Source: Pseudoclavibacter triregionum
GTDB lineage: Bacteria; Actinomycetota; Actinomycetes; Actinomycetales; Microbacteriaceae
Assembly: GCA_910822395.1 (NCBI GenBank)
Contig: OU365335.1
Location: 1,364,001 to 1,428,000 of the forward strand
Direction: 5' to 3'
DNA: 64,000 nt
In this document: in pieces, positions 51,618-60,208 of the stretch
Numbering within the stretch: the stretch's first letter is position 1
How the letters are laid out: each line of letters starts with the position of its first letter
The notes under the pieces: generated by a model
What the model was told of the DNA's origin: nothing
The model's input: only the letters and a program-made list of their open reading frames with translations
Databases searched by the model: none
Translations under genes and position numbers: made by a program

Positions 51618-51660
51618 ACGACGGCGCCCGCCGCGCATCATGCGCGGCGGGCGCCGTCGT
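51618..51660. terminator. Bidirectional terminator with perfect 20-bp stem
   Basis: ACGACGGCGCCCGCCGCGCA (51618-51637) pairs without mismatch with 51641-51660; the loop is TCA. It lies between the convergent GNAT and symporter genes, 52 and 25 bases from their stops. Confidence 0.7.
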
Positions 51661-59031: not shown

Positions 59032-59094
59032 AACTGCGCGAATGGCGGGGGTCCGAGGTGGTATCCACCTCGGACCCCCGCCATTCGCGCAGTT
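59032..59094. repeat. 63-base perfect palindrome, copy 1
   Basis: A 30-base arm (59032-59061, AACTGCGCGAATGGCGGGGG followed by TCCGAGGTGG) pairs without mismatch with 59065-59094; the loop is TAT. Copy 2 at 60146-60208 is the same except for GG to TT in one arm and CC to AA in the other, so pairing is kept. It lies 23 bases after the reductase stop and could end transcription, though no T-run follows. Confidence 0.95.
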
Positions 59095-59251
59095 GCGTGA
59101 CGCCATGCATGCCCGTGGAGCCGGAAGTCATGCCCCTCCGACGGTGCCGGCGGCGTGTCGCTCTCCGTGCACAGGACCTGCTCCGTCGGACGCTCCCCAG
59201 AAGATCAGGACGCTTCCGTCACGCGGCCTCGGCGCTTGATCGAATGCACGC

Positions 59252-60136
59252 GTGAACGTGCCTTCTCTCGATCCGGCCAGCTCCCCGTGGGCCGAGCAGT
59301 TTCGCTGGGGAGTGGTCTGCCGGAAAGCGCTGCTCGCAGCCGGATACTCGGCCGACGCGATCGCGCCCGAAGTGGCTCGGGGAGGACTGCGGCGTCTCCG
59401 TCGTGGCTGGTACGCCTTGCCCGGTGCAGAAGACAACGTCGCCGCTGCGGTGGCGCACGGCGCATCACTGACCTGTGCTGACGCCCTGTCGCTTCGGGGC
59501 TGTCGAACGGTCGGAGGACCGCAGCTGCACGTTCGCATTCCGCGCGGGCGCTCCGTCCTCCTGCCTCCCGGCCTCATCCGCCACGTCGCCCCTCATCGCC
59601 TCAGCTGCCCGGGCATGACTCCGGTCGATGAGCTCAGGCTCGCCCTGGCGTGTGCCTTCAGGTGTCTCGACGACGAGGCTCTGACCGTCGTCGCCGATTC
59701 CGCGCTCGAGCAGCGGCTCGTCGACGCCGACGACCTCAGATGGGCGGCAGACGGCTGCTCGCTCGACCGGCGGAAAGCAGTCGACTCCTTCGACGGGGGG
59801 AGCCAGTCTGTGACGGAGACGCTCGTCCGCATGCGCCTTCGCCGGATGGGCATCAAGGTCAGATCCCAGGTCGTCATCCCGGGTCTCGGGCGCGTGGATC
59901 TCCTCGTCGGAGACCTGCTCATCATCGAGTGCGACTCGAAGGCGCACCACACCTCGCTCGAGGCCTATAGGAACGACCGAAGACGGGACCGCGTCGCCGT
60001 CGTGAACGGCTACCTCGTCCTCCGACTCACCTACGCGGATGTGCTCTACGGCTGGGAAGCGGCCGTTCAGGACATCCTGGCGGTCGTGCGGGCCGACCGA
60101 CATCGCTCGTGGCGTCCGGCGCCCTGCCTCGGCTGA
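59252..60136 (+). CDS. AbiEi-N / DUF559 nuclease-like protein
   Basis: A 294-residue protein. The N-terminal part resembles the AbiEi antitoxin winged helix (EVARGGLRRLRRGWYALPGA). The C-terminal part is a DUF559, Vsr-like PD-(D/E)XK nuclease domain: E189 (SVTETLVRMRLRRMG), D216 and E226 in GRVDLLVGDLLIIECDSKAH, then RRDRVAVVNGYLVLRLTYAD. So the full set of acidic residues is kept. GTG 59252 is the first possible start. Its base composition is less extreme than the neighbours, which suggests transfer. Two near-identical palindromes bracket it. No toxin gene is beside it. Role unknown; such genes are common in Microbacteriaceae. Confidence 0.8.
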   Translation: MNVPSLDPASSPWAEQFRWGVVCRKALLAAGYSADAIAPEVARGGLRRLRRGWYALPGAEDNVAAAVAHGASLTCADALSLRGCRTVGGPQLHVRIPRGRSVLLPPGLIRHVAPHRLSCPGMTPVDELRLALACAFRCLDDEALTVVADSALEQRLVDADDLRWAADGCSLDRRKAVDSFDGGSQSVTETLVRMRLRRMGIKVRSQVVIPGLGRVDLLVGDLLIIECDSKAHHTSLEAYRNDRRRDRVAVVNGYLVLRLTYADVLYGWEAAVQDILAVVRADRHRSWRPAPCLG

Positions 60137-60145
60137 TCCTCCTGC

Positions 60146-60208
60146 AACTGCGCGAATTTCGGGGGTCCGAGGTGGTATCCACCTCGGACCCCCGAAATTC
60201 GCGCAGTT
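60146..60208. repeat. 63-base perfect palindrome, copy 2
   Basis: AACTGCGCGAATTTCGGGGG then TCCGAGGTGG (60146-60175) pairs perfectly with 60179-60208 around TAT. It begins 9 bases after the DUF559-gene stop and ends 21 bases before the 3' end of the convergent mannosyltransferase gene. Compared with copy 1, two base pairs are changed on both arms. Confidence 0.95.

Follow-up and report, generated by a model that had tools for sequence, protein, structure and literature searches.

AbiEi-like DUF559 nuclease genes of Actinomycetes are often bracketed by gene-specific long palindromes that recur as dispersed repeats

IS200/IS605 transposons carry subterminal hairpins at both of their ends, and these hairpins lie in the same orientation. 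In REP/RAYT systems, a gene is located between two palindromic repeats whose relatives are dispersed, the enzyme and its repeats diverge together, the repeat arms carry complementary changes, and clustering of repeats near the gene is seen in some genomes, as parts of two accounts describe them (PMC2817692, PMC3733652). The REPs flanking RAYTs are presented as inverted in the relevant section of the first account (PMC2817692), and the abstract of the second gives a REP length of 20-40 bp (PMC3733652). The operator of AbiEi is reported, in the portion of its study that treats the promoter, as an 11-bp inverted repeat spaced by 27 bp and situated in the protein's own promoter (PMC3985639). The MTES_1575 REase is named as a Vsr-fold REase, found in a large multidomain protein, in a passage of a HEPN survey (PMC3710099). 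The locus described here has a bracketed gene and dispersed repeats in common with REP/RAYT systems, whereas its enzyme combines predicted AbiEi-like and Vsr/PD-(D/E)XK-type halves in place of the Y1 (HUH) tyrosine transposase of the RAYTs.

The window, by which we mean the entire stretch of 64,000 nucleotides from Pseudoclavibacter triregionum that was analysed, contains this gene between an aldo/keto reductase gene and a convergent protein mannosyltransferase gene that follows the second palindrome (Table 1). The original prediction had described two 63-base palindromes with mismatch-free 30-base arms, a common TAT loop and two compensated adjacent changes per arm (GG/CC against TT/AA, with pairing kept in both copies), and all of this was confirmed, as were the gaps that separate the palindromes from the preceding stop codons, 23 bases from that of the reductase (59008) to the first and 9 bases from that of the nuclease (60136) to the second. 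For the 25-base palindrome centre with up to three mismatches, the chance expectation in the window is 0.00, and as single-stranded DNA with 10-base flanks the two copies fold at -48.5 and -46.5 kcal/mol (z = -11.53 and -13.95). No T-run follows either stem (0 terminator-like sites), and an Rfam search gave 17 matches up to an E value of 1 and none at gathering score. Inspection of the sequence around 59032 and 60146 found no GT(A/G)G head beside the palindromes, which is a difference from REPs.

Table 1. Positions in the window of the nuclease gene, its predicted domains and the two bracketing palindromes
Feature	Position	Strand	Remark
Upstream palindrome, family 1 copy, 30-bp arms, loop TAT	59032..59094	.	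One of 9 family-1 sites in the genome
AbiEi-like / DUF559 (MTES_1575 REase) nuclease gene, 294 codons, GTG start assumed	59252..60136	+	
AbiEi-type N-terminal region (predicted), residues 14-68	59291..59455	+	Pfam score below cut-off; PADLOC AbiEi models match residues 20-177
Vsr/PD-(D/E)XK-type nuclease domain (predicted), residues 190-277, with D216, E226, D228 and K230; E189 just N-terminal	59819..60082	+	
Downstream palindrome, family 1 copy, 9 bases 3' of nuclease stop	60146..60208	.	

Profile matches predict a two-part protein, DNA-binding and AbiEi-like in one half and a Vsr/PD-(D/E)XK-type nuclease in the other. The gene had originally been assigned to both AbiEi-N and DUF559; the DUF559 part holds, with PF04480 scoring 26.0 bits against a cut-off of 20.6, whereas AbiEi_3_N reaches 18.4 bits, under its cut-off of 26. 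The best PADLOC AbiEi model matches the window protein at an E value of 2.9e-6. The MTES_1575 REase model (PF18741) yields 32.9 bits, under its cut-off of 38.2, which the paralogue L015 of the same genome narrowly passes (38.3 bits), and the nearest solved chain to the nuclease domain is 3hrl, an "Endonuclease-Like Protein" (E 0.00033). Among the 23 aligned proteins, 23 match MTES_1575, 19 match DUF559 and 16 match AbiEi_4 at E <= 0.01. Residues E189, D216, E226, D228 and K230 and the stretch ECDSKAHH (226-233) are invariant across these 23 sequences, although for 226-233 the invariance is partly built in, because the peptide patterns used to fetch the proteins included ECDSKAHH. The paralogues L015, L016 and L019 encoded by the window genome (G000) keep the acidic positions and lack K230. 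A more distant relative in the same genome, L021, aligns to the family by hhalign with a probability of 95% (E 4e-8) and matches Pfam DUF559 with an E value of only 0.06.

The likeness to AbiEi concerns the N-terminal half, which matches AbiEi models, as well as the reported operator, whose published geometry is close to that of the elements described here. The differences are that the AbiEi-like half is here fused to a nuclease domain, that no AbiEii nucleotidyltransferase partner is present among the immediate neighbours of the window gene, and that the putative sites are also found downstream of the gene and dispersed. The Tsukamurella records examined annotate the family as "type IV toxin-antitoxin system AbiEi family antitoxin". 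The nuclease domain resembles MTES_1575, DUF559 and Vsr; the passage of the HEPN survey that describes the domain leaves palindromes unmentioned (PMC3710099).

Whether palindromes accompany DUF559 genes beyond chance was the check proposed with the original prediction, and the answer is affirmative. The upstream flank of each gene was compared with its own downstream flank, and a bracket was called at a similarity score of at least 17. The nuclease set comprised 130 loci, i.e. 132 entered minus L092 and L097, which are cut by contig ends, with 70 loci from a first set and 60 more from among the matches listed; some matches near contig ends or with an internal stop were left out, as was L021. 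These loci derive from Microbacteriaceae genomes, to which 27 named loci were added, among them some of Williamsia, Gordonia and Janibacter. For nuclease genes, the alignment served to estimate the start codon, whereas in controls the first available one was used. By this measure, 59 of the 130 nuclease genes are bracketed, as compared to none of 334 neighbouring genes from the same loci (Fisher P 1.7e-38, with close orthologues among the 130, e.g. L042/L043, not being independent). At a score of at least 15, the counts are 77/130 and 6/334. Of 103 neighbours whose intergenic room on either side is comparable, none reaches 17, and 837 mismatched flank pairs from the first set reach a maximum of 18, whereas true pairs reach up to 73. 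Inverted repeats scoring at least 13 occur in both flanks of 21/130 nuclease genes and 1/334 controls.

A scan for long palindromes found few brackets, whereas the comparison of flank against flank found many. In a rough initial control, one of 81 neighbours scored high; this was a duplicated stretch, probably coding sequence and not a palindrome, and it is not in the top scores of the 334-gene set. Within single genomes, five of the six nuclease genes of the congeneric genome G001 score at least 27, and two of the five in the window genome pass (51 and 21), with L021, scored separately, at 46. The remaining 71/130 nuclease genes fall under the threshold. Some of these (L170, L171, L176, L060) show diverged brackets by eye, so 59/130 may be an undercount; L047 has a score of only 13 and no palindrome. 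The orientation of the genes neighbouring the nuclease genes exhibits little or no bias. That the palindrome bracket is tied to the nuclease gene family is very well supported, and chance is excluded. As with RAYT genes, the window gene and these 59 relatives are bracketed by related repeats.

The aligned stretch measures 55-86 bp in 31/59 pairs, many of the long ones being quasi-palindromes, and 17-53 bp in the other 28. The longer class exceeds the 20-40 bp given for REPs in the part of the account that states their length (PMC3733652). Among the 48 pairs scoring at least 19, the downstream copy begins between -31 and +34 of the stop codon in 31, and in 46 the upstream copy stops short of the estimated start by 14-297 bases. 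The two copies are direct in 33 of these pairs and inverted in 15, an assignment that is undecidable for near-perfect palindromes such as the window pair. The prevalence of direct pairs differs from the inverted arrangement described for REPs around RAYTs and resembles the same-orientation hairpins of IS200/IS605 elements.

The repeat sequence is specific to the gene. When the 58 bracketed loci other than L050 are compared, none of 1644 nuclease pairs less than 60% identical has an upstream repeat in common at a score of 17, whereas four of nine pairs above 60% identity do. The outer ends of the repeats are not conserved between families. Families 5 and 6, with nucleases that are 47% identical, differ in their outer arms and share the consensus core CACTATCCAC; the family 1 core is TATCCAC. 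The motif TATCC/GGATA is located near the centre of 5/30 long elements (six close homologues left out), as compared to 2.2% of background windows (P 0.0005), while the outer-arm motif TCAGGA is only weakly enriched (8/59 versus 5% of background).

Compensatory changes had originally been taken to show selection or copying that maintains the fold, and the repeat families bear this out in part. In family 1 (8 copies), the arm triplet at columns 12-14 has 14 cells changed on both sides, reached in 0/500 shuffles; the family covariation score is likewise reached by 0/500, and the number of covarying pairs (5) by 141/500. In family 3 (10 copies), the corresponding figures are 11 cells (0/500) and 5 pairs (14/500); the shuffle counts of both families are not probabilities. 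Arm-to-arm copying during repair would also yield the triplet covariation of both families. Family 6, on the other hand, has conserved outer arms and core, and its spacers and interior exhibit no reliable pairing and no covariation beyond shuffles. This is the pattern of a protein site composed of a core and two inverted half-sites, as opposed to that of a folded RNA, and because the family 6 interior shows no covariation, a hairpin need not form.

All six repeat families, each traced from a nuclease locus, possess solo copies away from the gene, with 7 to 17 solos and 9 to 19 sites in total in the main genome checked, a dispersal reminiscent of REPs. Family 1 has 9 sites in the window genome (one contig, 2.36 Mb), of which two are at the gene and seven are solos, and no copy was found among the best 30 candidates in each of 9 congeneric genomes. 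Family 2 belongs to the gene L015/L052 of the window genome, which has a 49-bp palindrome at the ORF start and, read by eye, a decayed copy at the stop; one of its 9 sites is at the gene (one-arm pattern matches with up to three mismatches). Family 3 surrounds L021 with three palindrome copies, one upstream and two downstream, and has 11 sites in all. Family 4 brackets L039 in G001, where two of its 12 sites are at the gene, and a pattern search for it gave no match in the window genome. Family 5 has 12 sites in G319, namely two bracketing copies and ten solos, and no copy among the best 11 candidates in each of 26 other genomes of that genus. Family 6 counts 19 sites in G147 and 13 in G316, two of them at the gene in each genome. 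Matches to family 6 also exist in two other genomes: G198 has four paired sites plus single arms, and the four matches in G345 are all single-arm, with at least three of these located in hairpins. In these genomes, no nuclease more than 60% identical to the family 6 enzyme was found among the best 6 of 17 and 6 of 19 candidates, respectively, and since only these were scored, the cognate gene may have been missed. Families lacking a nuclease may exist unseen, because families were found from nuclease loci.

Convergent genes flank 18/34 solos of families 1, 3, 4 and 5, or 18/27 when the 7 located inside a crudely predicted ORF are left out. With the original prediction it was argued that palindromes widespread at gene ends and having no link to DUF559 genes would point to a general terminator or REP family; the location at gene ends is indeed common among solos, yet the DUF559 link exists, and the prediction as a whole is partly supported. 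All 19 family 6 sites found in G147 are located within C1:582384-1332488, i.e. 750 kb of a genome of ~4 Mb, for which the terminus region or local spread may be the cause. GC skew did not place the replication strands in G147, and the strand bias of its solos (12 to 4, with the gene pair and one ambiguous site left out) is not significant (two-sided binomial ~0.08). A search for the Y1 (HUH) transposase (PF01797) in two genomes, G000 and G001, found none at E <= 0.01, and the same search was positive in 6/14 controls. In these two genomes, the present system differs in this respect from both REP/RAYT and IS200/IS605 systems.

Comparisons among close relatives bear on both the palindromes and the complete cassette. 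A site devoid of the cassette is found in G008, where the two genes flanking the window element are adjacent, with ~309 nt between the matches as compared to 1411 and no element. In the closest homologue pairs compared, the nuclease genes are mostly at orthologous places, and the gene therefore appears to be mainly vertically inherited. A mobile cassette, one of the options originally offered, is among those that fit best, although the cassette as a whole may not be mobile. The palindrome copies themselves vary: upstream copies differ among L170, L171 and L176, as read from the alignment, and downstream copies differ between L102 and L105, as inferred from BLAST. Where they can be aligned, G147 and G316 are for the most part 92-96% identical. 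The 17 solos of G147 divide into six with a counterpart in aligned flanks of G316, two more that match there by spacing and sequence, five whose palindrome is missing from G316, and four undecided cases. At the five unshared sites, G316 has a different palindrome at one, a decayed half at another and none at a third, while two are inside larger indels; all five are messy, and none was found to be a clean insertion marked by a target duplication or a defined junction.

We consider the most probable explanation, with some reservation, to be that the nuclease and its cognate long inverted repeats form a unit in which the repeats are the enzyme's binding sites and spread as REP-like units. The reasons are the bracket of 59/130 genes, the gene-specific sequence, the solos of six families, the copy differences and the conserved acidic residues. 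Counting against it are the 71/130 genes under the threshold, the family 6 sites of G198 and G345, the mostly vertical inheritance that the gene appears to have, the failure to find a clean insertion at the unshared G147/G316 sites, the non-covarying interior of family 6, the non-significant strand bias in G147, the limitation of the core motif to 5/30 long elements and the lack of K230 in the paralogues of the window genome. Under this explanation, the window element would be one unit of a widespread actinobacterial nuclease-plus-palindrome system, and the cognate sequence would be a long interrupted inverted repeat with conserved outer arms, a variable spacer and a short core. A nuclease having its own recognition palindromes, as the original prediction also proposed, is among the best-fitting options. 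Several steps can be envisaged. Firstly, the AbiEi-like half may bind the outer arms, by analogy to AbiEi and its own inverted repeats. Secondly, the nuclease half may nick or cut an extruded hairpin, or else the core or its vicinity. Thirdly, repair or replication of the cut site could copy the palindrome to new intergenic places, and by this route the nuclease would mobilise its palindromes. Sites and enzyme would then evolve together much as in REP/RAYT systems, albeit with a different enzyme. Whether this amounts to an undescribed class of selfish repeat system in Actinomycetes, in which AbiEi-DUF559 nucleases cut or nick their own bracketing targets and so spread the palindromes, with a metal-dependent PD-(D/E)XK-type nuclease in place of an HUH transposase and with specificity changing from gene to gene, is in our estimation almost evenly balanced.

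In the literature searched, whose scope left preprints and most subscription papers outside, there is no description of an association between DUF559/AbiEi nucleases and palindromes. We set the association apart as new on the ground that the enzyme bears no relation to the RAYTs that mobilise REPs, and its working mode, if confirmed, would be REPtron-like. If the explanation is true, a large family annotated as AbiEi antitoxin gains a concrete DNA partner, and bacterial chromosomes would have a second possible source of REP-like repeats, enzymatically unrelated to the first. Furthermore, since the likely target of each nuclease stands on either side of its gene, genome sequences could yield many enzyme-target pairs, which would render both the evolution of specificity and the origin of dispersed palindromes directly testable.

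The main rival, which we regard as unlikely though deserving of serious attention, is that the palindromes are solely operators: the AbiEi-like half would bind them to regulate its own gene and a few others, the nuclease would act elsewhere, for example upon foreign DNA, and the repeats would not be mobilised by it. AbiEi is reported to bind and repress its own promoter at a 49-bp interrupted inverted repeat in the relevant part of that study (PMC3985639), the placement of the upstream copies ahead of the estimated start is as expected of an operator, and the conserved outer arms and poorly pairing interior of family 6 look like protein half-sites. However, an operator role leaves unexplained the second copy at the stop codon, the frequent location of solos between convergent genes and the copy-number differences between close relatives.

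A very improbable alternative is that the repeats are matS-like chromosome-organising sites, whereby a protein marks one chromosomal domain via about 10-20 long sites. The confinement of all 19 sites found in G147 to C1:582-1332 kb is what such a role would predict. Systems of the matS type are conserved, whereas the copies described here differ between close genomes, several families occur per genome, related genomes have unrelated sequences, and the protein includes a nuclease domain with conserved acidic residues.

Hardly credible is a third alternative, in which the DUF559 gene is a bystander and the palindromes are either general terminators or a REP family that some unrelated enzyme spreads. 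Solos are often in convergent intergenic spaces, other palindromes occupy such spaces too, e.g. at 51618-51660 of the window, and the tracing of families from nuclease loci could conceal nuclease-free ones. Against this are the absence of brackets among the 334 neighbouring genes, the correspondence of each family's sequence to its own nuclease, the lack of a T-run after the window palindromes and the lack of a Y1 transposase in G000 and G001. A shared strong terminator family, as originally suggested, is disfavoured by the missing T-run and by the tie of each family to its own gene, and a simple terminator family is rejected. Least credible of all are integron-like gene cassettes with the palindromes as attC-like recombination sites. 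The anatomy of a gene followed by an imperfect palindrome of ~60-85 bp, mostly in direct copies, does resemble attC-gene-attC, but attC sites have common core sites, whereas here the outer ends are not conserved between families, and a single gene family is the one around which brackets were looked for and detected.

An element of phage or plasmid origin was also considered and rejected. No match was found in phages, and of 10 stretches in viral contigs that matched the single pattern used, none encoded a relative. Three DUF559-AbiEi genes, L287-L289, are located on three "plasmid" records of Tsukamurella tyrosinosolvens NCTC13231, but the gene content around them looks chromosomal despite the labels. 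Of the three, L287 shows nothing (score 12), L288 a match of 19 bases (16) and L289 a flanking pair of 71 bp that has diverged (15).

Several further palindromes were encountered during these comparisons. In the reductase-mannosyltransferase intergenic space of G002 (L230), where the window genome has its element, there is a different long palindrome (CGAAAGAGCCGGGTTGTTGCTACCGGGCCC...) together with another gene. At one orthologous intergenic spot, L323/L345 (G147:C1:752628 and its G316 counterpart), the two genomes have palindromes of different families, as if the spot were a hotspot or one palindrome had replaced the other. Loci L146 and L148 of G001 have, beside two family 4 palindromes, another of the GCAAAATGTGGGGGTCCAAGCC type that resembles family 1. 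The window palindrome at 51618-51660 has 21-bp perfect arms and is flanked by two apparently convergent gene ends; judged by eye, it is likely a terminator-type hairpin.
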